This document shows positions 34,327-52,536 of a DNA stretch of 62,516 nucleotides, one piece after another (the stretch's first letter is position 1; the number at the start of each line of letters is the position of its first letter). The notes beneath the pieces are model-generated. The model saw only the letters and a program-made list of their open reading frames with translations. It had not been told where the DNA came from and did no database searches. The position numbers and the translations under genes were made by a program. Source of the DNA: Fibrobacter sp. (GTDB taxonomy: Bacteria > Fibrobacterota > Fibrobacteria > Fibrobacterales > Fibrobacteraceae); NCBI GenBank assembly GCA_017503015.1, contig JAFVTX010000025.1:1-62516 (forward strand). Direction: 5' to 3'.

Positions 34327-34342
34327 AGCAAAAATTATGCCA
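34327..34342 (-). promoter_or_regulatory. Sigma-54 promoter of glnN
   Basis: On the minus strand: TGGCATA-ATTT-TTGCT, with correct -24/-12 spacing. The predicted start is about 30 nt before the ATG. Confidence 0.75.
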
Positions 34343-34942
34343 AAATGTGTTAAATCGTAATGCTCTGCTAAAAAAGCAAAAAAATGGGAATAACTGTACT
34401 TACATGAAATGGTTGTTTTTCGTAAATTGAAAAAGAAATCAATGTTTTACAAGAGTTGTAAATTTTGTTTATCCACTAAATCAAAGTATTCTATTTCAAC
34501 ATTTTTTTTGATAAAGTAGTTTTCATGTTTGAAAATTTTCATGGATAATTGTTTCAACTATTTCTCTCTAGATTCTTGGACTTCGATACTATTATATATT
34601 GATACAAAGCGTGTCTCTGAAAATGCGTCACAATCGTTGTTTTGCACTACAAGGTTTTTGCTCGAGAGGTTGATGAATCCTTAATTTTTGTGTGTGAATA
34701 AAATTGCAAAATTCGCTCACCTCATATAATCCTTTTGTAGATGTCGGTGCATGCATGAAGTTTGTAAAGAATTGGAAAATTCTTTGCTAGTTTGTGTGTA
34801 GTGTAAAACATGCTTTCTTTGGGGCATCAAAAAAATGAGAACTATAAATGACTAGTTCAGCGCTCTTACTGCGATGACATAAATCATTTACCCAATGGCT
34901 GTAATAAGCCGTTTCGGTTTCGTTCTATTGAGGATGTAGCTA
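34343..34942. other. AT-rich non-coding region upstream of glnN
   Basis: About 600 bases without an acceptable gene between the glnN promoter and the end of glgC. Apart from the palindrome at 34446-34462 I see nothing I can name; a small RNA is not excluded. Confidence 0.5.
34446..34462. promoter_or_regulatory. Activator-site palindrome upstream of glnN
   Basis: A perfect TTTACAA-GAG-TTGTAAA centred about 138 bp upstream of the predicted glnN start. The same palindrome is present twice before dapF. Confidence 0.7.
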
Positions 34943-36193
34943 TTAAGCTTTAATCACCGTATCCTTGGCAAGAACCACGATGCCGGAGTCGGTCACGTGG
35001 AACAACTTTTTGTCTCGTTCCAGGTCATAGCCGATCTGGAATCCGGCTGGAATATGCAGGCCCTTCTCGATGATGGCACGGCGCACCTTAGCGCCCGGGC
35101 CGATGGTCACGTTCGGGAATAGGATAGCCTCCTCTACCAGGGCATCTTTCTGGATGGTGACTCCTGGACTGAGAATGCTCTTGACCACGGTGCCGCCGCC
35201 GATGATACAGCCCGAAGACACGATGGAATCGATGGCCGCCCCCTGGTGGGCGTTGCCTTCGCCGGCAAAGAACCTTGCGGGAGGCTGGTTCCAGTTGTAG
35301 GTGCGGATAGGCCAGTAGTTGTTGTATAGGTCGAAGGGTGGGTTTTCGGAGCACAGGTCCATGTTGGCCTCGAAGAAGGCGTCAAGGGTTCCCACGTCGC
35401 GCCAGTAGCCCTTGGTAGAGGCCTGTTCGCCACGGACGATGTTGGTGTTGAAATCGTACACGTAGACGGGGTAGTCCTTGTAGAGGCTCGGGATAATGTG
35501 CTTGCCGAAGTCGGTGGCGCCGCTCGCGGCACCCTTCATGAGTTCCCGGACCAGGAACTTGCTGGTAAAGATGTAGTTGCCCATGCTGGCGAGGCAGTAG
35601 CCGGGGTTGCCGGGCATTTCTTTCGGGTTCTTGGGCTTTTCCTCGAAACCGATCATTCGGTTGTCCGCATCCACCTCGATGATGCCGAATTCAGAAGCTT
35701 CGGACACGGGCACCGGGATAGCTGCAATGGTCAAAAGGGCGGCGCGACTCAGGTGGAAATCGATCATCTGGTTGATGTCCATCTTGTAGATGTGGTCGCC
35801 TCCGAAGATGGCCACCAGGTCGGGGCGCTCGTCGGTAATCAGGTTGATGTTCTGGAAAATGGCATCGGCGGTGCCACGGTACCAGTCGTCGCCGGTACGC
35901 ATCTGGGCGGGCACCAGGTCCACATACTGGTCTAGGCTCGCGTTCAGGTTCCAGGCGGCGGAAATGTGCTTGTTCAGGGAATCGCTCTTGAACTGGGTCA
36001 GCACCTTGATCTTGAAAATGCCGGAGTTGATGAAGTTGTTCAGCACGAAGTCGATGATACGGTAAGTTCCCCCGAAGTGGACGGCGGGTTTTGCCCGGTC
36101 CCGGGTGAGGGGTTGAAGACGGCTACCTTGACCGCCGGCCATGATCATGCAAAGGATGTTTTTTTGATGCTCTCTAGAGTAGGACCAGTTCAT
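34943..36193 (-). CDS. glgC: Glucose-1-phosphate adenylyltransferase (ADP-glucose synthase)
   Basis: The first committed enzyme of glycogen synthesis, making ADP-glucose from glucose 1-phosphate and ATP. It has 416 residues. The nucleotidyltransferase motif MIMAGGQGSRLQPLTRDRAKP begins near residue 12, the catalytic YRGTADAIFQN near 104, the glucose-site FEEKPKNPKE near 178, and a C-terminal left-handed beta-helix (about 290-390) with hexapeptide-like repeats. Rumen Fibrobacter species store large amounts of glycogen, which fits. It is transcribed alone; no clear terminator was found downstream. Confidence 0.96.
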   Translation of the reverse strand: MNWSYSREHQKNILCMIMAGGQGSRLQPLTRDRAKPAVHFGGTYRIIDFVLNNFINSGIFKIKVLTQFKSDSLNKHISAAWNLNASLDQYVDLVPAQMRTGDDWYRGTADAIFQNINLITDERPDLVAIFGGDHIYKMDINQMIDFHLSRAALLTIAAIPVPVSEASEFGIIEVDADNRMIGFEEKPKNPKEMPGNPGYCLASMGNYIFTSKFLVRELMKGAASGATDFGKHIIPSLYKDYPVYVYDFNTNIVRGEQASTKGYWRDVGTLDAFFEANMDLCSENPPFDLYNNYWPIRTYNWNQPPARFFAGEGNAHQGAAIDSIVSSGCIIGGGTVVKSILSPGVTIQKDALVEEAILFPNVTIGPGAKVRRAIIEKGLHIPAGFQIGYDLERDKKLFHVTDSGIVVLAKDTVIKA

Positions 36194-36381
36194 ATTTCCT
36201 CGGAAAAATGCTTATTTGCTTGTACACCACTAATTTACCTTATTTTTTAGAAAAAAACACAAAAAAAGGAAAAAAGCACCTTTTTTTAGGAGGTTGGACC
36301 TTTTGCCGGGGTTTGTTTTTTGTAAATTTATCCCCGTTCGAAATTATCGAAACTTAACGTTAAACCAAACAGGAGCTCTAT

Positions 36382-38244
36382 ATGAGTCTGACTCTCAACG
36401 ACATCAAGCACAGCAAGATCAAGGCTTGGGTTGAAGAATGCATCGCAATGTGCGAACCGGACAACGTGGTTGTTGTTGACGGTTCCAAGGAAGAATATGA
36501 CGCCCTCATGCAGAAGTGTGTCAAGGCTGGCCTTGCCACTCCGCTCAAGAAGAAGGAAAACTGCTTCTTGTTCCGTTCTCTGCCGTCTGACGTGGCCCGT
36601 GTCGAATCCCGTACGTTCATCTCTTCCGTGAAGGAAGAAGACGCCGGTCCGACCAACCACTGGATCGACCCCAAGGAACTTAAGGAAACCATGAAGGGCC
36701 TCTACAAGGGTTGTATGCACGGCCGTACCATGTACGTGATTCCGTTCTGCATGGGTCCCCTCGGTTCCCCGATTTCCAAGAACGGTATCGAACTGACCGA
36801 CTCCGAATACGTCGTGCTCAACATGGACATCATGACTCGCGCCGGCAAGAAGGTCCTCGACATTTTCAATGCCGACCAGAACGCTGAATTCGTGCCCTGC
36901 CTCCACTCCGTGGGTAAGCCGCTCAACAACGGCGAAACCGACGGCGGTATCTGGCCCTGCGCTGACGTCGAACACAAGTACATCACCCAGTTCCCGGAAG
37001 AACGCCTCATCTGGTCGTACGGTTCGGGCTACGGTGGAAACGCCCTCCTCGGCAAGAAGTGCTTTGCTCTCCGTATCGCTACCGTTCTCGCTCGCGACGA
37101 AGGCTGGCTCGCCGAACACATGCTCATCCTCAAGCTCACCAACCCGAAGGGCGAAGTCAAGTACGTGACTGGCGCCTTCCCGTCTGCTTGCGGTAAGACG
37201 AACCTCGCCATGCTTATCCCCACAATCCCGGGCTGGAAGGTTGAAACCATCGGTGACGACATTGCATGGATGAAGTTTGGCAAGGATGGCCGTCTCTACG
37301 CTATCAACCCGGAAGCCGGCTTCTTCGGCGTTGCTCCGGGCACCTCTGCAGAATCCAACAAGAACGCTCTTATCTCTGCCGAAAAGAACACCATCTACAC
37401 CAACTGCGCCCTCACTGAAGACGGCGACGTCTGGTGGGAAGGCATCGGCTACCCGGCCAAGGGCAAGCTCGTTGACTGGAAGGGTCAGACCCGCGACGCT
37501 CTCCCCAAGGACAAGGCTCCCAAGGGCGAAGAAATGGCTCACCCCAACGCTCGCTTCACCGCTCCTGCCAACCAGTGCCCCTGCATTGCCAAGGAATGGG
37601 AAGATCCTGCCGGCGTGCCTATCTCTGCAATCCTCTTCGGTGGCCGTCGTCCGTCCACCATTCCTCTGGTCCACCAGTCCCTGAGCTGGAACCACGGCGT
37701 GTTCCTCGGCTCCATCGTGGGTTCTGAAATCACCGCTGCTTCCACCATCAACGCTGCTGAAGTCGGTAAGATCCGTCGCGACCCGTTCGCCATCCTCCCG
37801 TTCTGCGGCTACAACATGGGCGACTACTTCAAGCACTGGATTGAAATCGGCAAGAAGTCTACCGAAGACAAGCTTCCGAAGATCTTCTACGTGAACTGGT
37901 TCCGCAAGGATGCCAACAACGAGAAACTCCCGGGTGGCTTTATGTGGCCGGGTTACGGCGACAACAGCCGCGTGCTCGCTTGGATCTTCGACCGTTGCGA
38001 CGGTGTCGATAACGCCAAGGAAACTCCGATCGGTTACATGCCGAAGGACGGCGCCATCAATACTGAAGGCCTCGCTGACTACTACAAGGAAACTCTCCCG
38101 GAAATCACGAAGGTTGACGTGGAAGGCTGGAAGAAGGAACTCGCCGACGTTAAGGAAAACCACTATCCGAAGTTCGGCAAGCACCTCCCGAAGGAACTCT
38201 CTGAAATCATCGACATGATCCAGGATCGTTTGAATAAGGCATAA
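36382..38244 (+). CDS. pckG: Phosphoenolpyruvate carboxykinase (GTP)
   Basis: Interconverts oxaloacetate and PEP with GTP/GDP; in succinate-forming rumen bacteria it runs mainly as the CO2-fixing step from PEP to oxaloacetate. The 620 residues match the GTP class (the ATP class is about 540 and unrelated in motif). Key segments are [16 protein letters not shown] near residue 119, the P-loop [13 protein letters not shown] near 268, and [20 protein letters not shown] near 505. AGGAG is placed 6 nt before the ATG. The codon choice is strongly biased (CTC, GGC, AAG), as for a highly expressed gene. Two hairpins follow the stop (38356-38394, 38399-38424). Confidence 0.97.
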
Positions 38245-38355
38245 TAAGGCGAGTAAAGCGGGAACAAACTCGTTTGTTCCCATTTCCGAGCCGATATGCC
38301 TGCGCTCGTAGAGCGCAACGCTTAATCAACCTTATCTTTCCTAACGGAAATCCTT

Positions 38356-38394
38356 TAAAATCCCTGCTGCCAGCGATGGTGGCGGGGATTTTAT
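38356..38394 (+). terminator. Terminator of pckG
   Basis: AAAATCCC-tgct-GCCA-gcga-TGGtGGCGGGGATTTT. A second hairpin (GGGCTTTGTAAGCCC then TTTTT) follows at 38399-38424. Confidence 0.75.
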
Positions 38395-38454
38395 TAAAGG
38401 GGGCTTTGTAAGCCCACTTTTTATGTTACGAAAGGTGTAATAACTGCTCGTGTT

Positions 38455-38471
38455 TTTACAAAAAATGAAAT
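38455..38471. promoter_or_regulatory. Degenerate activator palindrome upstream of gltB
   Basis: TTTACAA-AAA-ATGAAAT matches TTTACAA-N3-TTGTAAA at 11 of 14 fixed positions, centred about 122 bp before the predicted start. Confidence 0.45.
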
Positions 38472-38558
38472 TTATTCCTTTTCTAAAACCGCCTTCGATT
38501 TTCCATTCTTTACATTTTCTTTCCGCTTTTTCAATAATTGGCGGGTTGTGCTGAGATT

Positions 38559-38574
38559 TGGCACGGTTTTTGCA
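38559..38574 (+). promoter_or_regulatory. Sigma-54 promoter of gltBD
   Basis: TGGCACG-GTTT-TTGCA, a full consensus match. The predicted start is near 38585, leaving a 60-nt leader before gltB. Confidence 0.88.
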
Positions 38575-38644
38575 AAGTCCTTTCGCAAAAATAGGAATAA
38601 TGCGCGGATTTGAAAATGATTCGCAAATTTAGGAAAGGACGAGT

Positions 38645-41600
38645 ATGAACGCTCAAGCTCTTTACGACCCGATGAACGAACACGACGCCTGCGGTGTCGG
38701 CCTGGTCGCCAATATTAATAACGTCGCCTCGCACCAGATTGTGCTGCAGGGCATTACCGTTTTGAAGAGGCTCATGCACCGCGGTGCAGCAGGTGGAGAC
38801 CCGGAAACCGGCGACGGTGCGGGTCTCTTACTTTCTATGCCCCACAAGTTTTTCCGCAAGTTGCACCCGGAATTGCCTGCCCGCTATGGTGTGGCGATGT
38901 TCTTTGTGGAGAATACGCTTGCGGCGGATGCCTTTGACGCGAAGATCAAGGAGATTGCCGCTGCCGAGAGCATGCCAGTGCTGAACTTCCGCGAGGTGCC
39001 GGTGAATGCCGACAAGATCGGCCGCACTGCCCGCGAGACGTTGCCGCATATCCGCCAGGTGTTCTTTGACGGGACGGCGTTTGAAAATGACGGCACGTTT
39101 GATATTAAGTTGTATGTGGTACGTCGCCTAATGGAAAAGGCCTGCAAGGGCTTGTACGTTTGCAGCTGCAGCCGCCGTAGCATCGTGTACAAGGGCCTGC
39201 TTCTGGCGAGCCAGATTGAAGGCTTCTACAAGGACTTGAACGATCTCGATTTCGAGAGCCCGATTGCCCTTGTTCACCAGCGTTATTCTACGAATACTTT
39301 CCCGACTTGGCCGCTGGCGCACCCGTTCCGCTACCTCGCTCACAACGGCGAAATCAATACTCTGCGCGGAAACCTCAACAGCCTGCGTGCCCGCGAACCG
39401 CATCTGAAGAGCGAGATTATCGGCGACGATTTGCAGAAACTTTTGCCGCTTGTTCCGGCGGGGCAGAGCGATTCGGCTAGCCTTGACAACATGTTTGAGC
39501 TCCTCGTCGCTGCGGGTCGTAGCCTTCCGCATGCGATGATGATGCTCATGCCTCAGGCCTGGGGCAAAAAACATTACCTGGGTCGCGACGTGCGTGGGTT
39601 CTTCGAATATGAATCCATGCTCATGGAGCCGTGGGATGGCCCGGCCGCCGTGGCGTTCAGCGATGGCGTAAATGCGGGTGCGATTCTCGACCGCAACGGC
39701 CTTCGTCCGGCACGTTACACTCTGTGTAAAGACGGTCTTTTCGTGATGGCCTCCGAGACGGGCGTGCTCGACCTCCGCGATGACGAGGTGGAAGAAAAGG
39801 GCCGCCTCAAGCCCGGCGAAATCATTTATTTGGATTTGGAAAATCACCGCATCTTGAAGAATGCGGAAATGAAAGCGCAGGTGGCCCGTGCCAAACCTTA
39901 CCGCCGCTGGGTTGCCGAGAACAAGATGAGCGTCCGCGGGCTCTTCAGCGAAATCAACCCGTCCGACGTGCCCGACGACATTCTGGTGCAGCAGAAGCGT
40001 TTTGGCTATTCCGCCGAAGACCTGAGCATCATTTTGCAGCCCATGGCGAAGAACGGTGCAGAGCCGATTGGCTCCATGGGTAACGATGCCGCGCTGGCTG
40101 TACTTTCGGACAAGCCGCAACCGCTGTTCAACTACTTCAAGCAACTGTTCGCTCAGGTGACTAACCCGCCGATTGACCCGATTCGCGAAGAGCTGGTGAT
40201 GAGCCTTACGACATACATCGGGAACCACGGCAACATTCTGGAAGAAACTCCGGAACAGGCTCACCTGATTAAGATTCCGCGCCCGATTGTGACGGAAGAT
40301 GAAATCCGCCGCTTTGAAAATATCGGCGACAAGGCGTTCAAGGCGAAGGTGCTCAAGATGCAGTTCCCGCTGGGCGGTGACGGTTCCGTGCTGGAGGCTG
40401 CCTTGCAGAACTTGGCCGGCGATGCCGTGCGTGCGGTGCAGGACAGCTACGATATCATCGTGCTTTCGGACAAGAACATTGACTGGGGCTACGTGCCTAT
40501 GCCTTCGCTTTTGGCGACGGCTTGCGTGAACCGTGCCCTGGTGGAAGCGGGTGTTCGCCCCGAAATCGGTTTGATCGTGCAGAGCGGTGAAGTGCGCGAA
40601 GTGATGCACTTTGCGTTGCTTCTCGGTTACGGTGCCACGGTCATCAACCCGTATCTCGCTTTCGAGAGCATTACCAACATGTGCCACAACGGCGACCTGG
40701 ATGTGGATCCGGTGACGGCTGCTGCAAATTATGTAAAGGCTGTCGATAAGGGCCTGCTGAAGATTATGTCAAAGATGGGTATTTCTACCCTCCGCAGCTA
40801 CCGCAGCGCCCAGATTTTTGAAGCCGTGGGCCTGAACCACGAACTCATCGAGAAGTTCCTGCCAGGTACGGCAAGCCGCATCGAAGGTATCGGCCTCGAA
40901 GAAATTGCCCGCGAAGTGGGCGAGCGTCAGAAGATTGCGTTTGCCGATGCAAGCAAGGTTCTGCAGTCGGGCGGCCAGTATGCGTTCCGCAAGGAAGGCG
41001 AGAAGCACCTGTGGACTCCGCAGTCGCTTGCCGCATTCCGCCAGGCGGTGCAGGGTGGCGACTATGAGAAGTTCAAGGTCTACAGCAAGCTGATTAACGA
41101 CCAGTCCGAACGTCAGGCGACTTTGCGCGGGCTCTTCAAGTTCAAGGCTGCAACGCCGATTGATATTGGCGAAGTTGAATCTCGCGAATCTATCGTGAAG
41201 CATTTTGTGGCTGGTGCCATGAGCCTGGGTTCCTTGAGCCCCGAAGCCCACGAGACTATTGCCATTGCCATGAACCGCATTGGTGCCATGAGCAACTGCG
41301 GCGAAGGTGGCGAGGACCCTGACCGCGATACTCCGGCCGCAAACGGTGATATCCGCAGTTCTGCGATTCGCCAGGTTGCCTCGGGCCGATTTGGCGTGAC
41401 CATCGACTACCTGCGTCATGCAAAGGATTTGCAGATCAAGATGGCCCAGGGCGCAAAGCCCGGCGAAGGTGGCCAGCTGCCAGCCCATAAAGTGAACGAG
41501 TTCGTGGCACGTATCCGCCATTCTATCCCGAACGTGTCTCTGATTTCTCCGCCGCCGCATCACGATATTTACTCCATCGAAGACCTGGCGCAGTTGATTT

Positions 41601-43069
41601 ATGACCTGCGCAACGCCAACCCGAAGGCCCGCGTTTCCGTGAAACTCGTGTCTGAAGTGGGCGTGGGTACAATTGCCGCGGGTGTCGCTAAAGCTCATGC
41701 CGACGTGGTACTGATTTCCGGTCACGATGGCGGTACGGGTGCATCTCCGCTTACCTCCATCAAGCATGCAGGCCTCCCGTGGGAACTCGGTATTGCCGAA
41801 GCGGAACAGACGCTGGTGCTGAACGATTTGCGCGGACGCATCAAGCTCCAGGTGGATGGCCAGCTCAAGACAGGCCGTGACGTGGTGGTGGCTGCCCTCC
41901 TCGGTGCCGAAGAATTCGGCTTTGCTACGAACCTTCTGGTAAGTCTCGGTTGCGTGATGGACCGCAAGTGCCATACGAACCAGTGCCCCATGGGTATCGC
42001 TACGCAGGATCCTGAATACCGCAAGCGTTTTGCGGGCAAGCCCGAATATGTGGAAAACTTCCTCTACTTTATTGCCGACGAAGTCCGCGAAATCCTTGCA
42101 AGCCTTGGCCTGCGTTCCCTGGCAGAGGCCTGCGGCCGTAGCGACTTGCTGGAACGGGACGAAGCTATTGCCTTCTACAAGGCGCACAACCTGGACTTCT
42201 CCAAGATTTTCAAGACCGTGGGTGGCGGCATCAAGTCCTTCGACAAGAACTTTGTGAAAGAAGAACTGGTGAACTTCGACCGTCGCGAACTGTTGCCTTT
42301 CGTGTTCAATACCCTCAAGAATGGCGAGTCCGTGGAACTTTGCACCATAGTGCACAATACCGACCGCACCGTGGGTACGGAACTTTCCGGCGAGGTGGAT
42401 GAACGCTTTGGCGTGAAGGGCCTCCCCGAAGATACCATCAAGATTCACCTGCAGGGTGTCGCGGGCCAGAGCTTCGGTGCATTCCTCGCTCCGGGTATCA
42501 CCCTCGATTTGCAGGGCGAAGCCAACGACTTTATGGGCAAGGGCCTTTCGGGCGGTAAGATTATCGTGCGCCCGCCTAGCAATGCAAGCTTCAAGGCCGA
42601 AGACAACGTGATTGCGGGTAACGTCATCGGTTATGGCGGAACTTCGGGCAAGATTTTCATCAACGGTCTCGCGGGCGAACGCTTCGGTATCCGTAACTCG
42701 GGTATGCTTTTGGTCAGCGAAGGCGTGGGTGACCACGGCTGCGAATACATGACAGGCGGTCGCGTGGTTGTGCTCGGTCGCGTGGGCGTGAACTTCGCCG
42801 CGGGTATGACAGGCGGTTTTGCCTACGTCTACGATGAGACGGGGCATTTTGACCTGAGCTGCAACGTGGATTCCGCCGACCTAGAAAGTGTGCTTCCGGG
42901 CACGGAGAGCGAAAGCGAACTGCTCGGCATCATCAATCAGCACGTTGAGGCGACGGGTAGCGAGAAGGGCAAGCGCATTCTGGAAAACTGGAACAGCGAA
43001 CGCCCGAAGTTCGTGAAGATTTTCCCGGTGGATTACAGGAACGCTTTGGCGAAGAAGGGGAGGGCATAA
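38645..43069 (+). CDS. gltB: Glutamate synthase, large subunit
   Basis: Transfers the amide nitrogen of glutamine to 2-oxoglutarate. It has 1474 residues. The N-terminal glutamine amidotransferase domain should be processed to expose the nucleophile Cys16 (NEHDACGVGLVA). The central and FMN-binding synthase domains follow (NCGEGGEDPDRD near 890, ISGHDGGTGASPL near 1028), then the 3Fe-4S cluster Cys motif CVMDRKCHTNQCPMG near 1104, and a C-terminal beta-helix domain (repeated GG-x-x-x/GVGD...). The frame is intact. It overlaps gltD by one base (TAATG). A sigma-54 promoter at 38559-38574 places it under nitrogen control together with glnN and the P-II gene. Confidence 0.97.
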   Translation: MNAQALYDPMNEHDACGVGLVANINNVASHQIVLQGITVLKRLMHRGAAGGDPETGDGAGLLLSMPHKFFRKLHPELPARYGVAMFFVENTLAADAFDAKIKEIAAAESMPVLNFREVPVNADKIGRTARETLPHIRQVFFDGTAFENDGTFDIKLYVVRRLMEKACKGLYVCSCSRRSIVYKGLLLASQIEGFYKDLNDLDFESPIALVHQRYSTNTFPTWPLAHPFRYLAHNGEINTLRGNLNSLRAREPHLKSEIIGDDLQKLLPLVPAGQSDSASLDNMFELLVAAGRSLPHAMMMLMPQAWGKKHYLGRDVRGFFEYESMLMEPWDGPAAVAFSDGVNAGAILDRNGLRPARYTLCKDGLFVMASETGVLDLRDDEVEEKGRLKPGEIIYLDLENHRILKNAEMKAQVARAKPYRRWVAENKMSVRGLFSEINPSDVPDDILVQQKRFGYSAEDLSIILQPMAKNGAEPIGSMGNDAALAVLSDKPQPLFNYFKQLFAQVTNPPIDPIREELVMSLTTYIGNHGNILEETPEQAHLIKIPRPIVTEDEIRRFENIGDKAFKAKVLKMQFPLGGDGSVLEAALQNLAGDAVRAVQDSYDIIVLSDKNIDWGYVPMPSLLATACVNRALVEAGVRPEIGLIVQSGEVREVMHFALLLGYGATVINPYLAFESITNMCHNGDLDVDPVTAAANYVKAVDKGLLKIMSKMGISTLRSYRSAQIFEAVGLNHELIEKFLPGTASRIEGIGLEEIAREVGERQKIAFADASKVLQSGGQYAFRKEGEKHLWTPQSLAAFRQAVQGGDYEKFKVYSKLINDQSERQATLRGLFKFKAATPIDIGEVESRESIVKHFVAGAMSLGSLSPEAHETIAIAMNRIGAMSNCGEGGEDPDRDTPAANGDIRSSAIRQVASGRFGVTIDYLRHAKDLQIKMAQGAKPGEGGQLPAHKVNEFVARIRHSIPNVSLISPPPHHDIYSIEDLAQLIYDLRNANPKARVSVKLVSEVGVGTIAAGVAKAHADVVLISGHDGGTGASPLTSIKHAGLPWELGIAEAEQTLVLNDLRGRIKLQVDGQLKTGRDVVVAALLGAEEFGFATNLLVSLGCVMDRKCHTNQCPMGIATQDPEYRKRFAGKPEYVENFLYFIADEVREILASLGLRSLAEACGRSDLLERDEAIAFYKAHNLDFSKIFKTVGGGIKSFDKNFVKEELVNFDRRELLPFVFNTLKNGESVELCTIVHNTDRTVGTELSGEVDERFGVKGLPEDTIKIHLQGVAGQSFGAFLAPGITLDLQGEANDFMGKGLSGGKIIVRPPSNASFKAEDNVIAGNVIGYGGTSGKIFINGLAGERFGIRNSGMLLVSEGVGDHGCEYMTGGRVVVLGRVGVNFAAGMTGGFAYVYDETGHFDLSCNVDSADLESVLPGTESESELLGIINQHVEATGSEKGKRILENWNSERPKFVKIFPVDYRNALAKKGRA

Positions 43070-44460: not shown

Positions 44461-46479
44461 ATGTTCAGATTTTACCGGTTCGCATGTGTTTCGACCGTGT
44501 TGAAGGTGGCCGATACCGCCTACAATACCGAAGAAATTATCAGGAGCGCGAAAATTGCTGCCTCTAACGGGGCGGCTTTTGTCGTTTTCCCGGAACTTTG
44601 CATTACGGGCTATACCTGCAGCGACTTGTTCCACCAGGAACTGCTTTTGCAGAACAGCACCCATGCGCTTGTGCGGATTGCGGACGCCTTAAAAGAAAGC
44701 GACGCCGTGATTGCGGTTGGCCTGCCTTTGCGCATATTCGGAAGGCTGTATAACTGCGCTGCCTTTGTGCAGCACGGGCGCGTTGTGGCGATTACGCCCA
44801 AGATTCACTTGCCGAACCAACGCGAATTCTACGAGAAACGCCATTTTTCGAGCGGGCGGGATTTACTGCGCGGGGCATGTGGCACTTCGGCAGGGAGTGC
44901 CGCTAGCATCGTGAAGTGTGCGATAGAAGGCGCAGGCGAAGTCCCTGTCACGAATTTTATTACTGTGAAGGGCGCGGGTTCCGAGGTTCGCATAGGCGTG
45001 GAACTCTGCGAGGACTTGTGGACACCGGCACCACCCAGCGGGGAACTTGCCCTTGCAGGCGCGAACGTCATCGTGAATCTCTCTGCAAGTGATGCGCTGG
45101 TAGGCAAGCGCGATTACCGCAGGAACTTGGTGATGAACCAGTCGGCGCGTTGCATGGCGGCCTACGTGTACGCCTCCGCCGGAGTACACGAATCTACAAC
45201 GGACATGGTCTTCAGTGGCTACCTGATGATTGCAGAAAACGGGAGCATGCTCGCCGAAAGCAAGCCTTTCTCGCGGGAAACCGAAATCGTTTATGCTGAT
45301 GTGGACGTGGAACGCCTGAATATGCAACGCCTGAGCGAAGGAAGCTTCCAGGATTTTGACAGCCGTGCTATCATTGCACGGGCGGCTACTCTTGATAACC
45401 TGCACGCATGCGAAAAGCTACAGTACCGCTATGTTTCGCCGACACCCTTTGTTCCTGGCTCGCTCGAAACTCGTGACGCTTCTTGCACCGAGATTTTCAA
45501 CATACAGTGCGCGGGGCTTGCCAAGCGCCTAGAGGCGACCCGAAGCAAGCGTGCTGTAATTGGCCTGAGCGGCGGGCTTGATTCTACGCTTGCGCTTCTT
45601 GTGGTTGCGGAAACGTTCAAGCTGTTGAACCGCCCTGCAAAAGAAATACTTGCGCTCACGATGCCTGGATTCGGGACAACACATCGCACCAGGAACAATG
45701 CAGTTGAACTCGCGAAACTCCTGGGCGTGGAACTCCGCACCGTCGATATCCAAAAGGCGTGCCTCCAGCATTTTGCCGACATCGGGCACGACCCGCAAAA
45801 GCTCGATGTGACTTACGAGAACGTGCAGGCCCGCGAACGCACGCAAATCCTGATGGATATCGCGAACAGCGAAGGCGGAATCGTCATCGGAACAGGAGAC
45901 CTCTCCGAAATTGCGCTCGGGTGGAGCACTTACAATGCCGATCACATGTCCATGTATGCGGTGAACTGCGATATTCCCAAGACGCTCGTGCGCCATATCG
46001 TAAGCTGGTATGCCGACCGCGCGACTCATAACCCGAATCAAACCGGCGCGGAATCTATCCCGGATCAAAAAGCCACGCATCTCGCCTCCAGCGACGAAGC
46101 CGCCCTTGCCGCAGTCCTCCGCGACATCCTCGACACGCCCGTCTCTCCGGAACTTTTGCCTGCCGATTCAAGCGGCCAGATTGCTCAAAAAACGGAAAGC
46201 ATTCTCGGGGCGTACGAACTGCACGATTTTTTCCTTTACCATTTTGCGAAATACGGAGCCGCTCCCGAAAAACTCCGCTACCTCGCGAAATACGCGTTCG
46301 CAAACAGGCATACTGACGAAGAAATCGACAAGGCTCTCGCTGTTTTTATCAGGCGCTTCTTTACGCAGCAATTCAAGCGCAGCTGCATTCCCGATGGCCC
46401 GAAGGTCGGAACCATCTCGCTGTCGCCCCGTGCCGACTGGCGCATGCCCAGCGATGCGAGCTGTAGTGATTGGACTTAA
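44461..46479 (+). CDS. nadE: Glutamine-dependent NAD+ synthetase
   Basis: Final NAD biosynthesis step, amidating nicotinate adenine dinucleotide with ammonia taken from glutamine. It has 672 residues. The N-terminal nitrilase-type glutaminase has Glu45 (FPELCITG), the Lys region TPKIHLPNQREFYEKRHF near 114, and Cys183 (GVELCEDLW). The C-terminal synthetase begins with the PP-loop GLSGGLDSTLALL near 366 and has GTGDLSEIALGWSTYNAD near 477. It is 27 nt after gltD and in the same direction, so it may share the sigma-54-driven transcript. Window partner: nadB. Confidence 0.96.
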   Translation: MFRFYRFACVSTVLKVADTAYNTEEIIRSAKIAASNGAAFVVFPELCITGYTCSDLFHQELLLQNSTHALVRIADALKESDAVIAVGLPLRIFGRLYNCAAFVQHGRVVAITPKIHLPNQREFYEKRHFSSGRDLLRGACGTSAGSAASIVKCAIEGAGEVPVTNFITVKGAGSEVRIGVELCEDLWTPAPPSGELALAGANVIVNLSASDALVGKRDYRRNLVMNQSARCMAAYVYASAGVHESTTDMVFSGYLMIAENGSMLAESKPFSRETEIVYADVDVERLNMQRLSEGSFQDFDSRAIIARAATLDNLHACEKLQYRYVSPTPFVPGSLETRDASCTEIFNIQCAGLAKRLEATRSKRAVIGLSGGLDSTLALLVVAETFKLLNRPAKEILALTMPGFGTTHRTRNNAVELAKLLGVELRTVDIQKACLQHFADIGHDPQKLDVTYENVQARERTQILMDIANSEGGIVIGTGDLSEIALGWSTYNADHMSMYAVNCDIPKTLVRHIVSWYADRATHNPNQTGAESIPDQKATHLASSDEAALAAVLRDILDTPVSPELLPADSSGQIAQKTESILGAYELHDFFLYHFAKYGAAPEKLRYLAKYAFANRHTDEEIDKALAVFIRRFFTQQFKRSCIPDGPKVGTISLSPRADWRMPSDASCSDWT

Positions 46480-46487
46480 TAGTTTGC

Positions 46488-46534
46488 TTTACAAAAATTG
46501 TAAAAGAATTTGTTGAATTTACAAAAATTGTAAA
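46488..46534. promoter_or_regulatory. Two activator-site palindromes upstream of dapF
   Basis: Two perfect copies of TTTACAA-AAA-TTGTAAA (46488-46504 and 46518-46534), exactly 30 bp apart, centred about 142 and 112 bp before the predicted start. The same sequence class is at 34446. Confidence 0.75.
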
Positions 46535-46611
46535 AATAATACATTGGAATATTTGCTTAAATTTGCCAAAATTAGGCAGTTTTAGACATGTTTTAACATT
46601 TTGTGTAAAAT

Positions 46612-46627
46612 TGGCACATTTTTTGCA
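46612..46627 (+). promoter_or_regulatory. Sigma-54 promoter of dapF
   Basis: TGGCACA-TTTT-TTGCA, a full match. The predicted start (about 46638) sits at the dapF ATG (46639), so the message would be nearly leaderless. Confidence 0.75.
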
Positions 46628-46638
46628 AGTTGGCAGGC

Positions 46639-47469
46639 ATGAGCTTAAAATTTTCAAAATGGACCGGCCTGGGTAACGATTTCGTGCTGCTGGAACCGGG
46701 AGAATCGCTGGATCTTGGCGATGGATTTGAACAGCAAGTTGTTCGGCTTTGCGACCGCCGTTTCGGTATCGGCGCCGATGGTGTTGTCCTCGTGACTCCG
46801 CTGGAGGGCGACGGCTGCACCAAGGGCGTCGACTTCGAGATGCGCATCTTTAACGCCGACGGTTCCGAGGCCGCCATGTGCGGGAACGCCACGCGGTGCG
46901 TGGCAAAGTTCATTGTCAGCCGCGGACTTGCTAAGGATGCCGGCACCAAGGTCTTTGTTCTGCATACCAAGAGCGGCCTTGTGAAGCCCTCGCTTCTGGA
47001 AGACGGTCGGGTCTGTGTGGATATGGGCCTCCCCAGGGATTTCCTCGGGAGTATCAAACTTCCCGCCGACAGTTTCGACTTTACCGCCGAGACGGTCTCC
47101 ATGGGAAATCCCCATGCGGTCATTTTCGTCGATGATATCGAGAAGATCCAGCTGGAAAAGTGGGGGAGTGTCCTGGAAGTAGATAAGCAGTTCCCGGACC
47201 GCTGTAACATCGAGTTTGCGCAGGTCTTGCCTGCAGAGCAGGGGGCGCCCACCCAAATCCGCATGCGGGTTTGGGAACGAGGCTGTGGCGTCACCATGGC
47301 CTGTGGAACCGGGAGTTGCGCCACCCTCGTTGCGGCCCAGCGCACGGGCCGCGTGGGCGTCGAAGCCGACATCATTCTCGACGGCGGGACGCTCCACATC
47401 AAGCATCAAGACGGCGGCCCCGTCCTCATGACCGGCCCTGCTACTGAAGTTTTCAGAGGAGAAATTTAA
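46639..47469 (+). CDS. dapF: Diaminopimelate epimerase
   Basis: Converts LL- to meso-diaminopimelate for lysine and peptidoglycan. It has 276 residues. The two catalytic Cys are present, Cys81 in AMCGNATRC and Cys222 in TMACGTGSC. N-terminal GLGNDFVLLE and RRFGIGADGVV are typical. I start at ATG 46639; a TTG three codons earlier was rejected. No good ribosome-binding site precedes it, because the -12 element ends 12 nt upstream. dapL follows after a repeat. Sigma-54 control of dapF is unusual. Confidence 0.93.
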   Translation: MSLKFSKWTGLGNDFVLLEPGESLDLGDGFEQQVVRLCDRRFGIGADGVVLVTPLEGDGCTKGVDFEMRIFNADGSEAAMCGNATRCVAKFIVSRGLAKDAGTKVFVLHTKSGLVKPSLLEDGRVCVDMGLPRDFLGSIKLPADSFDFTAETVSMGNPHAVIFVDDIEKIQLEKWGSVLEVDKQFPDRCNIEFAQVLPAEQGAPTQIRMRVWERGCGVTMACGTGSCATLVAAQRTGRVGVEADIILDGGTLHIKHQDGGPVLMTGPATEVFRGEI

Positions 47470-47480
47470 AACAAGGATGT

Positions 47481-47588: not shown

Positions 47589-47603
47589 TTTGGAAACGCG
47601 ATT

Positions 47604-48806
47604 ATGAATATACTTAACACCAATTACGATCTTCTTCCCGGCAGTTACCTCTTTTCTACCATCGCCAAAAAGATTGCCGAATACCAGGGCAAAAAGCCCG
47701 ATGCCGACATCATCCGCCTGGGAATCGGCGACGTGACCACGCCGCTTGTCCCCGAAGTTATCAAGGCCATGCACAAGGCTGTTGACGAGATGGCGGAGAA
47801 GGGGACTTTCCGCGGGTACGGGCCCGAGCAGGGCTACGACTTTTTGCGTCAGGCCATTGTGGCGGGGGAGTACACCTCCCGCGGGATTGATATGGATCCG
47901 GAGGATATCTTTGTCAGCGACGGTTCCAAGTGCGATGTGGCGAACATCCAGGAACTTTTTACAGAAAATGTAAAGATAGCCATTCCGGACCCTGTCTATC
48001 CGGTCTATCTGGACTCCAACGTGATGGCCGGGCGCGCGGGCGTGTTGCAAGATGATGGACATTTTTCTAAGGTCACCTACCTGGCCTCCACCGCCGAAAA
48101 CAACTTCCAGCCGGACCTGCCCAAGAATCCGGTGCAGATGATTTACCTCTGCAGCCCGAACAACCCCACGGGCACGGTGCTCAGCCGCGAGACCCTCCAG
48201 AAGTTCGTGGATTACGCCAACGAGAACGGTGCGATAATACTCTTTGACGGGGCTTACAACTGCTACATCCAGGACGAGTCGCTGCCCCATTCTATTTTCG
48301 AGATTCCGGGAGCCCGCACCTGCGCTATCGAGTTCCGCAGTTTCAGCAAGACGGCGGGCTTTACCGGCGTGCGCTGCGCCTACACGGTGATCCCTCACGA
48401 ACTTTCGAAACTCCATTCCATGTGGAACCGCCGCCAGTGTACCAAGTTCAACGGCGTGAGCTACGTGACCCAGCGTGCCGCCGAGGCCATCTACAGTCCG
48501 GTCGGCTGGCGGGAGACCAAAGAAGTCATTGCGGGTTACATGCGCACGGCTGGGGTTATCCGCAAGGAACTCACCGAGGCTGGCTATACCGTGTTCGGCG
48601 GCGAGCATGCTCCCTACATCTGGTGGAAGATTGAAGGCGGCGAAAAGTCCTTCGATTTCTTTGACCGTCTGCTTGCCACCTGCGAAGTGGTGGGTACACC
48701 CGGTAGCGGTTTCGGTCCTTGCGGTGAGGGTTATTTCCGCCTGACCGCCTTCGGCGACTATGAGCGCACGAAAGTCGCACTCCAGCGAATAAAGGAAAGG
48801 CTCTGA
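47604..48806 (+). CDS. dapL: LL-diaminopimelate aminotransferase
   Basis: A PLP enzyme forming LL-diaminopimelate directly from tetrahydrodipicolinate and glutamate, bypassing the acylated route. It has 400 residues. The DapL features are RLGIGDVTTPL near residue 38, FRGYGPEQGY near 71, FVSDGSKCDVANIQ near 103, the YLCSPNNPTGTV region near 179, and the PLP Lys in FRSFSKTAGFTGVRCAY near 246. It is the partner of DapF, 134 nt upstream. No dapD/C/E-type gene is in the window. Confidence 0.94.
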   Translation: MNILNTNYDLLPGSYLFSTIAKKIAEYQGKKPDADIIRLGIGDVTTPLVPEVIKAMHKAVDEMAEKGTFRGYGPEQGYDFLRQAIVAGEYTSRGIDMDPEDIFVSDGSKCDVANIQELFTENVKIAIPDPVYPVYLDSNVMAGRAGVLQDDGHFSKVTYLASTAENNFQPDLPKNPVQMIYLCSPNNPTGTVLSRETLQKFVDYANENGAIILFDGAYNCYIQDESLPHSIFEIPGARTCAIEFRSFSKTAGFTGVRCAYTVIPHELSKLHSMWNRRQCTKFNGVSYVTQRAAEAIYSPVGWRETKEVIAGYMRTAGVIRKELTEAGYTVFGGEHAPYIWWKIEGGEKSFDFFDRLLATCEVVGTPGSGFGPCGEGYFRLTAFGDYERTKVALQRIKERL

Positions 48807-48849
48807 GCTCGCCATGCTGTGCAAGGCTTTGAGCTATGAGGTCGTTCGC

Positions 48850-48940
48850 CTTTGGCTCACTCTGAGCAAAATTTTAACTACTCGTTTATCATACCTCAAA
48901 GTGCCGTAGGCACGACCCCACACCTCGAACCCCATTTGCT
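48850..48940. repeat. CATACCTCA-stem-ACCCCACACCTCGAACC repeat
   Basis: The spacer before the sigma-54 activator. GTGCCGTAGGCAC forms a stem, flanked by CATACCTCAAA and ACCCCACACC. Hairpins of the TCGTTCGCCTTTGGCTCACTCTGAGC type also occur. A related unit lies in hrpA (28229-28272). Confidence 0.5.
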
Positions 48941-48945
48941 ATCTT

Positions 48946-50469
48946 ATGTCCATGCCAATTCCCATCGGTTCCGAAATTTCGGTTATTCAAAAAATCAGCG
49001 TCGCCATCATCCACGAGCGCAATGTGGAAAAGTTACTCGAGAATGTGCTTGGCATTCTTGAATCCGAGCTCGGCATGTTGCGGGGCACTTTCGCGCTCCT
49101 CTTTGGCGATACCCTCAAGATCGAGGCGTCCCGTGGGCTCGACGAATCCGAAAAACAGCGTGGATTGTACCGGATGGGCGAGGGCATTACGGGCCATGTG
49201 GCGGAGCGTGGCATCAGCCATGTGATTCCCGACCTGCGCAAGGATTCCCGCTTCTTGAACCGTACGGGGAGCCGTCATTACGAAAATCAGGTGGCCTTCA
49301 TCTGTGTGCCGCTGATTCACGACGGCCAGGTCATCGGCACGCTCTCTATCGACCGCCCGGTGGATGGCGCGACGGATTTGGACCGGGACGTGGCCCTGCT
49401 GGAAATCATCGCCAACATCACGGGCGACGCCGCCAACGAATGTATCGAGCTGCACAACGAACGCGAAGCCATGCTGGAAGAGAACCGCAAGCTCCGCGAC
49501 ATGCTTTCTAACAATCCGGGCGATCTGGTAGGGAATTGCCGGGAGATGCAGCTGATTTACGAACAGGTACGCCAGGTGGCGCCCAGCGACGCTACGGTCC
49601 TGATCCGTGGCGGGAGCGGTACGGGTAAAGAGATGATAGCCCGTGCCATTGTGAATTTGTCTGCAAGAAAGGACAAGCCCTTTATTACCCTGAACTGTGC
49701 GGCCCTTCCGGAAAACCTGGTGGAAAGCGAACTGTTCGGTCACGAGAAGGGTGCCTTTACGGGAGCGGTGAACCGCCGTATCGGTCGCGCCGAAGCCGCC
49801 AACGGAGGCACGCTCTTTTTGGACGAAATCGGTGACCTTACCATGCAGACCCAGGTGAAACTCTTGCGGTTCTTGCAGGAGCGCACCTTCAGCAGGGTAG
49901 GCAGCAACGAGGAACTCCATTCGGACGTTCGCTTTTTGGCGGCTACCAGCCGTAACCTGGAAGAACTCATCGCCCAGGGCAAGTTCCGCGAAGACCTTTT
50001 CTACCGCCTGAATATTTTCCCCATTTCCATGCCCGACCTGGCTAAGCGCAAGTCCGACATCATCTTGCTTGCGGAGCATTTCATCGAGAAGATGAACCTG
50101 CGCTACGCGAAGAAGGTGGTGCGTCTTTCGACGACGGCCATCAACCTGCTCATGAGCTACCACTGGCCGGGCAACGTCCGCGAACTGGAAAACTGCATGG
50201 AACGGGCGGTGCTTACCGCAAGCGACGACTGCATCCACAGTTATAACCTGCCTCCATCGCTTCAAACCAGTCTCAGCACGGGGCAGTCGGGTGCTGCCAG
50301 TACGAAAATAGCCCCTCTCGACGTGATGCTGAACAACTACGAGCGTGAAATCATCACCGAGGCCATCAAGCGCAACAACGGAAATCTCTCAGCCGCAGGC
50401 CGCGACCTGGGCGTGTCTCCCCGCATGATGAACTACCGCATGAACAAGCTGGGCATCAAGTCAAAATAA
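48946..50469 (+). CDS. NifA-like sigma-54-dependent transcriptional activator (GAF-AAA-Fis)
   Basis: A 507-residue enhancer-binding protein. The N-terminal GAF domain (about residues 15-165) could sense a small molecule or bind P-II, as in NifA. The AAA+ domain has Walker A GGSGTGKE near 222, the sigma-54-contact loop GAFTGA near 269, Walker [12 protein letters not shown] near 286, and an arginine-finger region [10 protein letters not shown]. The Fis-type helix-turn-helix is at the C-terminus ([20 protein letters not shown], about 478-497). No phosphorylatable receiver domain is present, so it is not NtrC. Divergent/adjacent to amtB and P-II genes, it is the probable activator of the glnN, gltBD, dapF and P-II promoters. 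The exact start (48946 or 48952) is uncertain because no ribosome-binding site is visible. Confidence 0.9.
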
Positions 50470-50498
50470 AACATTGCATTTGTGCGTCACCATTTTGT

Positions 50499-50524
50499 TA
50501 AGCCCGCCCTGAGCGGGCTTTTTC
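50499..50524 (+). terminator. Terminator of the sigma-54 activator gene
   Basis: AAGCCCGC-CCTGA-GCGGGCTT followed by TTTCTA. Confidence 0.85.
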
Positions 50525-50546
50525 TATATCGTCAAGGTACGACATT

Positions 50547-50578
50547 AAAAAAATCCCGCAGGATTTCTCCCGCGGGAT
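50547..50578 (-). terminator. Terminator of amtB
   Basis: ATCCCGC...GCGGGAT hairpin; on the minus strand it is followed by TTTTTTT. Confidence 0.85.
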
Positions 50579-50601
50579 AGCCTCTATTTATGGAGTATAA
50601 C

Positions 50602-51867
50602 TTACATATTGCTGAAGATCTGGAATCCGCTGTAGGCTTCTTGACCGTGTTCGCTTTGGTCGAGACCGCGAAGTTCTTGTCTTTCAGTAACGCGCAGTCC
50701 GATAGTCTTCTTGATGACGTAGAAGATCAGGCTTGCGGCTGCGAAGCAGGGCACTGCGTAGGCAAGCACGCCAACAGCCTGCGTTCCCAGCGTGTAGTCG
50801 CCGGTCATATCGAAGATACCCACGGCGAGAGTTCCCCACACGCCGTTTACCAGGTGAACAGAGAGGGCACCGACCGGGTCGTCCAAGTGCAGGCGGTCGA
50901 ACATGAACACCGCACCCACAACCAGCACGCCAGCGATAGCGCCGATAATCCAGGAGGAGAGCGGAGTTACCACGTCGGCACCGGCAGTGATAGCCACGAG
51001 ACCGGCAAGGCAGCCGTTCAAGGCCATAGTGGCGTCGGGCTTCTTGGAGACAATCCAGCTGGTGAGTGTCGCGGTAATGATACCGGCAACAGCGGCGAGG
51101 TTCGTGGTCACCAAAATCCAGCTAGTAGCCTTCGGGTCGCCAGAGAGAGCGGAACCGGCGTTGAATCCCCACCAACCGAACCACAGCATGAACACGCCGA
51201 TGGTGGCGAGCGGAATGTTGTGAGCCGGGATGGCATGCACCTTGCCGCCCACATACTTGCCGATACGGGGTCCAAGAATCATCACGCCTGCAAGCGCTGC
51301 CCAGCCACCCACGGAGTGCACCAGCGTAGAACCGGCCAGGTCATGGAAGCCGTGTGCACCGAGGGTAGAAAGCCAGCCGCCGCCCCATGTCCAGCTACCC
51401 ACGATAGGATAGACAAAGGCAACATAGATGATGGTGAAAATGAGGAAGGAATGGAGCTTCACGCGTTCTGCTACGGCGCCCGAGACGATGGTGGCTGCGG
51501 TGGCGGCGAACATGGCCTGGAAAAGCCAGTCTGCAAACAACGTAAAGTGGCCGTTGTAGGCGGCGGTGAAGCTGTCCGGGTTAGCCCAATCGCCGATGCC
51601 AAGGCCTGCGAATCCGAGAATCCCGTTGAAGGTTCCCGGATACATGAGGCCAAAGCCCAGCAGCGCGTACATGGTGATGCCTATGGCGGGGACCGCGATG
51701 TTCTTGAACGCGACGTTCGCAGAGCACTTGGCCCGCACAAGACCCGCTTCCACGCAGGCGAATCCGAGACCCATGATGAACACCAGCATGGCGCTGATCA
51801 TGATCCAGATGTTTTCTGTCATAAAGATGGCGTCGCTGACAGGTACGACTTGTGTAACTTCGTTCAT
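50602..51867 (-). CDS. amtB: Ammonium transporter
   Basis: An inner-membrane ammonium channel of 421 residues with about 11 spans. The two pore His are in STLVHSVGGWAALAG (first half) and GALSVHLVNGVWGTL (second half), and FMLWFGWWGFNAGS is typical. N-terminal MNEVTQVVPVSDAIFM precedes the first span; AAGGA lies 6 nt before the ATG. The P-II gene lies 139 nt upstream in the same direction with a sigma-54 promoter, so both are probably cotranscribed; P-II would block the channel when nitrogen is plentiful. Confidence 0.96.
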   Translation of the reverse strand: MNEVTQVVPVSDAIFMTENIWIMISAMLVFIMGLGFACVEAGLVRAKCSANVAFKNIAVPAIGITMYALLGFGLMYPGTFNGILGFAGLGIGDWANPDSFTAAYNGHFTLFADWLFQAMFAATAATIVSGAVAERVKLHSFLIFTIIYVAFVYPIVGSWTWGGGWLSTLGAHGFHDLAGSTLVHSVGGWAALAGVMILGPRIGKYVGGKVHAIPAHNIPLATIGVFMLWFGWWGFNAGSALSGDPKATSWILVTTNLAAVAGIITATLTSWIVSKKPDATMALNGCLAGLVAITAGADVVTPLSSWIIGAIAGVLVVGAVFMFDRLHLDDPVGALSVHLVNGVWGTLAVGIFDMTGDYTLGTQAVGVLAYAVPCFAAASLIFYVIKKTIGLRVTERQELRGLDQSEHGQEAYSGFQIFSNM

Positions 51868-51916
51868 TGGTAGTCCTTAAAATATGGTTTGAAAAGATGG
51901 TATAGTTGCGAGCTCT

Positions 51917-51976
51917 AAGTTACTAGTTACTAGTCTTTTTTGAGAGCCTCTAGTAACTAGTATCTATTAACTAGCC
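51917..51976. repeat. Heptamer-based inverted repeat between P-II gene and amtB
   Basis: AGTTACT repeated, then about 20 nt later TAGTAAC-TAGTATC-TATTAAC-TAG. Each arm is a 7-nt tandem, and the arms can pair. It lies inside the likely glnK-amtB transcript. Confidence 0.7.
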
Positions 51977-52006
51977 CGCAGGGCGTAACTGCGCCGAAGG
52001 CGCTAT

Positions 52007-52348
52007 TTATCCAATCGCCTCCGGCCCAGTTTCTCCGGTACGGATGCGGATACACTGTTCGAGGCTGGTGACGAAAATCTTTCCGTCACCGATTTCGCCG
52101 GAGCGCGCGCCCTTGATGATGGCGTCGATACAGGGCTGCACGAATTCGTCGTTTACCGCAATCTTGAGGCAGATTTTCTTGAGCAAATTCACTTCGGTCA
52201 CCACGCCGCGGAAGCGCTGGTTATAGCCCTTCTGCTGGCCGCAGCCGAGCACGTTGGTTACTGACATCTTGAAAATGTTGTTTTCGTAAAGCGCTTGCTT
52301 CACGAGATTGAGTCGTTCGGGTTGAATGTAGGCCGTAACGAGTTTCAT
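52007..52348 (-). CDS. glnK: P-II nitrogen regulatory protein
   Basis: A 113-residue P-II signalling protein that binds ATP/ADP and 2-oxoglutarate and regulates AmtB and other nitrogen proteins. The start at 52348 ([14 protein letters not shown]) has AAGGA 9 nt upstream; the longer reading crosses the promoter and is wrong. The ATP-binding segments are normal: GCGQQKGY (35-42) and [12 protein letters not shown]...IRIRTGE. The T-loop is unusual: the uridylylation Tyr51 of E. coli is Thr here and Tyr46 is Phe ([16 protein letters not shown]), and position 49 is Val, not Ser. Covalent control at those sites is thus not expected. It is followed by amtB. Confidence 0.93.
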
Positions 52349-52399
52349 GGCGCTTGTCCTTGTTTTCATTCCAAGGAATTTTGGAATTCGCGCCATATA

Positions 52400-52415
52400 T
52401 GCAAAGAGCGTGCCA
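52400..52415 (-). promoter_or_regulatory. Sigma-54 promoter of glnK-amtB
   Basis: On the minus strand: TGGCACG-CTCT-TTGCA, a full consensus match. The predicted start is about 41 nt before the ATG. Confidence 0.88.
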
Positions 52416-52519
52416 AAAAAGAGAAATGCGCGAAATTTCGCGAAAAACGGCGAAATCGCTGGGAAAATGAAAGAAAACCGCGCTGACTTTACGGATAATG
52501 TTTTTCGTTTATTGAATAA

Positions 52520-52536
52520 TATCCAAAAAACGTAAA
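52520..52536. promoter_or_regulatory. Degenerate activator palindrome upstream of glnK
   Basis: TATCCAA-AAA-ACGTAAA matches the TTTACAA-N3-TTGTAAA palindrome at 10 of 14 positions, about 139 bp before the predicted start. A weaker one (8 of 14) is centred near 52496. Confidence 0.35.

Follow-up and report, generated by a model that had tools for sequence, protein, structure and literature searches.

The DNA analysed here is a stretch of 62,516 nucleotides (nt) from Fibrobacter sp. (contig JAFVTX010000025.1), which as a whole is called the window. It carries glnN, gltBD, nadE, glnK-amtB and the gene order dapF-dapL-activator, the last gene of which encodes a sigma-54 activator. The sigma-54 promoters found among these genes, and the palindromic sites upstream of them, belong to a real, strongly conserved nitrogen/glutamine regulon with a site of its own. 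The genes, promoters and palindromes are as follows (bp, base pairs).

32166-34286, minus strand: glnN, type III glutamine synthetase (PF12437, 259.7 bits)
38645-43069, plus strand: gltB, glutamate synthase large subunit (NF008730, 1691.8 bits)
43069-44433, plus strand: gltD, glutamate synthase small subunit, directly after gltB (by domains)
44461-46479, plus strand: nadE, glutamine-dependent NAD synthetase (by domains)
46639-47469, plus strand: dapF, diaminopimelate epimerase (PF01678), start set by orthologs
47604-48806, plus strand: dapL, LL-diaminopimelate aminotransferase (TIGR03542, 649 bits, cutoff 364.7)
48946-50469, plus strand: GAF-AAA+-Fis sigma-54 activator (NifA-like homolog), proposed binder of the palindromes (by domains and profile scores)
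50602-51867, minus strand: amtB, ammonium transporter (TIGR00836, 381.4 bits, cutoff 343.3)
52007-52348, minus strand: glnK, P-II protein (PF00543)
34327-34342, minus strand: sigma-54 promoter of glnN, TGGCATAATTTTTGCT, one mismatch (TGGCAT)
38559-38574, plus strand: sigma-54 promoter of gltB, full TGGCAC-N5-TTGC match
46612-46627, plus strand: sigma-54 promoter of dapF-dapL-activator, TGGCACATTTTTTGCA, full TGGCAC-N5-TTGC match
52400-52415, minus strand: sigma-54 promoter of glnK, full TGGCAC-N5-TTGC match
34446-34462, unstranded: putative glnN enhancer site, a perfect palindrome starting 120 bp upstream of the -24 box
38425-38441, unstranded: putative gltB enhancer site 1, GTTACGAAAGGTGTAAT, core TTAC-N7-GTAA
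38455-38471, unstranded: putative gltB enhancer site 2, TTTACAAAAAATGAAAT, 3 mismatches, 30 bp from site 1
46488-46504, unstranded: putative distal dapF enhancer site 1, TTTACAAAAATTGTAAA, a perfect palindrome
46518-46534, unstranded: putative dapF enhancer site 2, a perfect palindrome exactly 30 bp from site 1
46593-46609, unstranded: dapF site 3, TTAACATTTTGTGTAAA, 2 bp upstream of the -24 box, proposed autorepressor (governor) site
52520-52536, unstranded: weak candidate site at glnK, no better than shuffles in the window

The four -24/-12 elements lie where an earlier note on this DNA had put them, three of them (gltB, dapF, glnK) being full consensus and that of glnN deviating at one position. 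TGGCAY-N5-TTGC is thus present at all four promoters, and the genome encodes RpoN (PF04552, 178.7 bits, cutoff 22.8), with one match to its DNA-binding domain in the genome, as expected for sigma-54-dependent promoters.

The same note had described a palindrome TTTACAA-N3-TTGTAAA that is perfect at 34446, 46488 and 46518, the last two exactly 30 bp apart, and degenerate at 38455, where we count 3 mismatches; all of these are found. At gltB the note had missed the site at 38425, which stands exactly 30 bp before 38455, and none of 300 shuffles yields an equally good pair. The 7-3-7 form of the palindrome holds at glnN and dapF, but what is conserved is a 6-5-6 core (TTTACA-N5-TGTAAA). Across the genome (2,962,420 bases, 74 contigs) the longer form occurs with at most 1 mismatch in 3 places, all in the window, compared with 1 for the reversed pattern, which served as the control throughout. 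The exact 6-5-6 core is found 4 times, each time in the window and once within dapL itself, and 9 more sites have 1 mismatch (2 in the window, 7 outside), with 7 in total for the reversed control. Isolated degenerate sites therefore mean little, and it is the perfect sites that are concentrated in the window. Within the window, 10 matches to the palindrome at up to 3 mismatches are found against 2.3 expected, a number reached by 0 of 100 shuffles. The perfect 6-5-6 match inside dapL (47958) is exact in 13 of 32 relatives and lost in distant ones; for this reason, and because it lies inside dapL, it is set aside as coding sequence and not counted as a site.

The earlier note had proposed searching related genomes for the palindrome paired with a -24/-12 element, with enrichment at nitrogen genes as the expected outcome, and the search bears this out. 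A single site with a sigma-54 box is present in 41 of 61 genus genomes and a pair with a box in 65 of 80, the reversed control giving 0/61 and 0/80. Every promoter that was classified precedes a nitrogen/glutamine gene or the activator operon, leaving 0 unassigned. The 65 distinct single-site promoters belong to dapF (51), glnN (5), purF (5), pyrG (2), gltB (1) and the activator (1), and the 68 distinct pair promoters to dapF (64), gltB (3) and the activator (1); the PurF and PyrG identities were checked by domains. This classification covered 54 of the 55 single-site entries and 68 of the 69 pair entries, together with further fetched regions of relatives, the entry omitted from both being one (G017, contig 136) in which a dapF fragment begins 38 bp beyond the box. 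All 32 fetched genus regions in which the three genes are present show them as dapF-dapL-activator, with gltBD, nadE, glnN and glnK-amtB as variable neighbours. In one genome (G019, L106:7655), pyrG (CTP synthase) and dapF lie divergently on either side of a common site pair, each with its own sigma-54 box, and in another (G014, L084), glnN and gltB are directly divergent and share one site pair.

The regions concerned are AT-rich, and outside the window the genome's 7 single 1-mismatch sites stand against 7 for the reversed control, which is what chance matches in AT-rich intergenic DNA would look like. The 65 of 80 genomes with pair and box against none for the control, and a register that is conserved while the DNA between varies, leave such an origin of the palindromes hardly credible.

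The dapF promoters were aligned on the first base of the -24 box in the 32 fetched genus regions and the window (n=33). All 33 have a sigma-54 box with 0 or 1 mismatch and a site pair whose two members together deviate at no more than 2 positions; the spacing is 31 bp in 27 promoters and 30 bp in 6, and the distal site starts 111-147 bp before the -24 box. The distance from the start of the -24 box to the dapF ATG is 41-53 bp in 26 of the 33 and 21-28 bp in 7. Since the activator gene comes third after the dapF promoter, the two perfect dapF sites would be the activator's own autoregulatory sites. In the window (46612-46641), the predicted transcription start, 12 bp after the C of the -12 element, falls about 1 nt before the ATG, so that the transcript would be leaderless.

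A third site with at most 2 mismatches is found at offset -19 in 33/33 dapF promoters, and no other offset from -60 to -3 holds it. Its half-site positions -18, -16, -15 and -8 to -3 are invariant in all 33, columns -27 to -21 carry at most 0.34 bits, and the fixed columns are about as informative as the -24/-12 box itself. The site also precedes the separate promoter of the activator in G032; in this genome (L090), dapF and the activator both have a sigma-54 promoter and a third site, and more palindromes stand about 20 bp before both start codons. As at governor-type sites, an extra activator-type site thus lies near the promoter of the activator's own operon. Because site 3 touches the -24 box, a bound dimer would sit where the polymerase sits, which suggests a brake on the activator's own operon, and we regard such an autoregulatory brake as probable. 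A sigma-70 promoter under the site (TAGACA/TAAAAT-like, 46583-46611) was considered as the reason for the conservation and rejected: the columns of the TAGACA hexamer are unconserved, and the second hexamer is TAAAGT or TAAAAG in relatives.

Site 3 could alternatively aid activation, for example by placing an activator dimer against the sigma-54 polymerase, and the exact register with the -24 box in 33/33 promoters is also what such a direct contact would need. A pyrG promoter in G032 has a similar site, with 2 mismatches, at -18, so the third site is not strictly confined to the activator's promoters, which speaks against the brake. However, 13 of the 14 other target promoters (purF 5, pyrG 2, glnN 6, gltB 1), which would need the same help, are without it. 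We hold a role in activation to be somewhat unlikely; the distribution of site 3 fits autoregulation better than a general aid to activation.

The activator matches PF00158 (236.2 bits) and PF02954 (30.5 bits), has a GAF domain, and its GAFTGA motif can be read, which makes it a bacterial enhancer-binding protein. It scores 459 bits against the NifA profile TIGR01817, below the cutoff of 528.85, and 316.1 bits against the NtrC profile TIGR01818 (cutoff 558.6), having a GAF domain in place of the receiver domain. In the PDB its residues 11-504 are closest in sequence to a Nif-specific regulatory protein, and for the GAF part there are matches to Nlh1 and Nlh2 (4g3k, 62.2 bits, residues 9-178). 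A GAF domain similar to those of Nlh1/Nlh2, followed by AAA+ and Fis domains, places it with the NifA-like homologs (Nlh), a group without a curated cutoff.

The genome holds 6 strong sigma-54 activators, and the recognition helix SPRMM is common only to the window activator and to a GAF-less paralog of 381 residues (L038:1060-2205, contig C44). The Fis domain of this paralog is nearly the same as that of the window activator and unlike those of the other four, which weighs against the window activator as the reader of the sites, and the paralog has a GAFTGA motif and a full AAA+ domain match. The main competing explanation is that the sites are read mainly by the paralog, or by both proteins, one regulated and one constitutive. 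The paralog gene is found on another contig, with no TTAC-N7-GTAA site and no strict sigma-54 box in the surrounding 14 kb of that contig, whereas the operon with the best sites encodes the window activator, whose homologs adjoin nitrogen genes in other phyla. The window activator, linked to the sites as the paralog is not, is the best candidate for the binder, and the two activators may share the sites; we consider this competing explanation distinctly unlikely. An NtrC-like protein of the genome (L034:1093-2538, contig C32) reaches 358.7 bits against the NtrC cutoff of 558.6, and its receiver domain seems, judged by eye, to lack the phospho-acceptor aspartate.

The earlier note had named the GAF-AAA-Fis protein as the natural candidate for the binder, and the distribution across the phylum agrees with this. 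Among 24 phylum genomes, the site pair is found in two, the window's own genome (G000, at dapF only) and G038 (between glnN and gltB), and it is these that have an activator ortholog of at least 82% identity. The other 22 have no pair, and their best activator homologs (E <= 1e-100) reach at most 46% identity. Orthologs are found in the genus and in G038, which belongs to another family of the order and in which the activator (L105) adjoins glnN and gltBD without dapF or dapL. G037, assigned to the genus of G038, has neither a close ortholog nor the pair, and provides the better contrast because these sister genomes differ in ortholog and pair together.

The palindrome might also be bound by a factor other than a sigma-54 activator, such as a Crp-like protein or a repressor, with an unrelated activator driving the promoters. 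A symmetric AT-rich 17-mer would suit many families, and site 3, abutting a promoter, resembles an operator. Against this stand the tandem arrangement of the sites, which are 30-31 bp apart and as far from the sigma-54 box downstream as enhancers are expected to be, the linkage to and co-occurrence with a Fis-type activator, and the TTAC-N7-GTAA geometry, which equals that of the NtrC site GCAC-N7-GTGC. We rate this explanation as very improbable.

Outside the phylum, activator homologs at 61-70% identity are found in metagenome-assembled genomes (MAGs) labelled Victivallis, Verrucomicrobia, Kiritimatiellae and Lentisphaerae. A Victivallis MAG (L152) has the gene order gltB-gltD-dapF-dapL-activator, and in L156 glnK-amtB adjoins the activator homolog. 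In two Spirochaetota MAGs (L162 and L163) the homolog is found with amtB, glnK and glnN, and in L162 also with gltBD. In a Lentisphaerae MAG (L155), the homolog and a glutamate dehydrogenase gene diverge, with a degenerate 31-bp pair between them that 0 of 200 shuffles equal and a sigma-54 box on either side. The SPRMM-x-YR helix is retained in L153, L154 and L155 and not in L152. In the tree, the genus activators group with the proteins of L153-L155 (support 0.95) and not with the best homologs of G037, G054 and G055; the activator is nearer to Lentisphaerae, Kiritimatiellae and Verrucomicrobia MAG proteins than to these three, which suggests a transfer of the activator between phyla.

The glnK-amtB genes are a probable member of the regulon. 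The glnK locus was read in 30 of the 50 genomes with a match, and all 30 have a sigma-54 box in front of the gene. The sites there are weaker: in about 7 of the 30, a site of no more than 1 mismatch lies not farther than 210 bp from the start, for example CTTACAATTCTTGTAAA, which in four genomes has a second site 29 bp away. Some relatives thus have better sites than the window, where the palindrome that the earlier note had listed at 52520 is not supported as a real site; it is also absent from the matches to the 7-3-7 form at up to 3 mismatches. The P-II protein of the window (52007-52348) seems, judged by eye, to lack the T-loop tyrosine that is uridylylated in enterobacteria, so that it may not be modified by GlnD.

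A number of observations weigh against the regulon and the role of its activator as described here. The best pair before glnK in the window is at chance level (41 of 300 shuffles do as well). The -24/-12 boxes alone are unremarkable, with 27 in the window at up to 2 mismatches against 18.7 expected and 3 of 100 shuffles reaching 27. Lone palindromes with at most 1 mismatch are only moderately enriched, at 172 against 71 for the reversed control summed over 37 genus genomes; counts of lone palindromes are thus weak, and a clean separation from the control is obtained only by site plus box or by pair. Pair and box are missing from 15 of the 80 genus genomes, including 3 of 40 of high quality, and related genomes are not independent samples. 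In the genome of the window, the scans for site or pair plus box gave no purF or pyrG site. Five genus genomes (G007, G017, G021, G022 and G028) are without a close activator ortholog; four of them have no dapF and one has only a fragment of it, for which reason they are uninformative as a test of activator loss. Outside the phylum, the exact pair occurs in 0 of 12 genomes with activator homologs. Of 11 upstream regions of homologs, 9 are equalled by at least 10 of 200 shuffles each, and only that of L155 beats all 200; a single shuffle of the 200 equals the region of L153, but its score is negative and it lacks a strict sigma-54 box. In 80 homolog loci (1.23 Mb), the 6-5-6 core at up to 1 mismatch is matched 5 times and the control 2 times, and the eight closest homologs inspected contain no match.

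The remaining features of the locus are two genes between glnN and gltB and a possible terminator.

34943-36193 and 36382-38244: GlgC-like nucleotidyl transferase and GTP-dependent phosphoenolpyruvate carboxykinase
50500-50520, plus strand: terminator-like hairpin after the activator gene, weak, with 6 such sites in 4.3 kb against 4.8 expected

No strong terminator-like site is found on the plus strand between dapF, dapL and the activator gene, a pattern that fits one operon without proving it; the three genes would then share one transcript. The nadE gene, which precedes dapF in the window, lies downstream of the activator in 17 of 34 fetched regions of relatives.

In our view the observations are probably best explained by a sigma-54 nitrogen/glutamine regulon run by the NifA-like GAF-AAA+-Fis activator encoded third behind the dapF promoter. 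The sites, their pairing and register, the target genes and the co-occurrence with the activator ortholog can be read in the DNA itself, and from these we infer that the window activator is the binder and that its GAF domain senses nitrogen status through 2-oxoglutarate or GlnK. Activators of this kind normally sit on two sites that are spaced by three helical turns and lie upstream of a -24/-12 box. The window activator would bind TTTACA-N5-TGTAAA as a dimer, and two sites 30-31 bp apart would seat the oligomer, which would loop to the RNA polymerase-sigma-54 at the -24/-12 box and open the promoter. Its targets would be the operon that encodes it, ammonia assimilation (glnN, gltBD with nadE and probably glnK-amtB) and, in some species, the glutamine-using biosynthesis genes purF and pyrG. 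When abundant, the activator would also fill the slightly weaker site 3 abutting the -24 box and block the polymerase, so that induction would be strong yet limited, in the way put forward for the E. coli glnAp2 governor sites.

The NtrC half-site is GCAC, and the system described here differs from NtrC at glnAp2 in its half-site TTAC, its GAF domain instead of a receiver domain, its operon partners dapF-dapL and a third site that directly abuts the -24 box. The likenesses are paired high-affinity sites upstream of a glutamine synthetase sigma-54 promoter, an activator in the operon it controls, and extra low-affinity sites farther downstream, which at glnAp2 are proposed to act as a governor limiting transcription (PMC3870243). 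The GAF-AAA+-Fis layout is that of NifA and of Aquifex aeolicus Nlh1/Nlh2. NifA recognizes TGT-N10-ACA, unlike the ACA-N5-TGT found here, and the activator further differs from NifA in its score below the cutoff and in its targets, those found being assimilation and biosynthesis genes. The GAF domain of NifA is reported to bind 2-oxoglutarate in Azotobacter, on which the signal proposed for the window activator is based, and Nlh1 has been speculated to control nitrogen assimilation instead of fixation (both PMC9866876). The sigma-54 activator FlbD of Caulobacter crescentus is described as repressing an early gene as well, by way of a site at that gene's promoter (PMC3930126), but it controls flagellar genes and has an N-terminal response regulator domain. 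Caulobacter NtrC, a two-component protein, represses its own operon, and the available text does not describe a tandem enhancer with an abutting third site (PMC10274813). We found no paper on Fibrobacter nitrogen control in the open-access literature, judged by the titles and abstracts shown, and little seems to be in print.

A wider reading, which we put forward tentatively and hold to be possible without calling it likely, is that this activator module moved between gut phyla and became the nitrogen master of the genus in place of NtrBC. It would tie glutamine status to ammonia assimilation and to purine, pyrimidine, NAD and diaminopimelate synthesis, and would cap itself via the third operator locked to the -24 box, one protein thereby acting on a single sigma-54 promoter as an activator from the enhancer and as a repressor from the promoter itself. 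The NtrC cutoff is reached by none of the genome's activators; no search was made for NtrB, and the absence of NtrBC is presumed. With the site, the activator and the promoter set all defined, the regulon is a testable system. If site 3 brakes, the dapF operon would be a compact natural case in which an activator holds down its own sigma-54 operon through a promoter-locked site. With purF, pyrG and dapF-dapL among the targets, nitrogen control by sigma-54 would reach as far as the precursors of nucleotides and of the cell wall.

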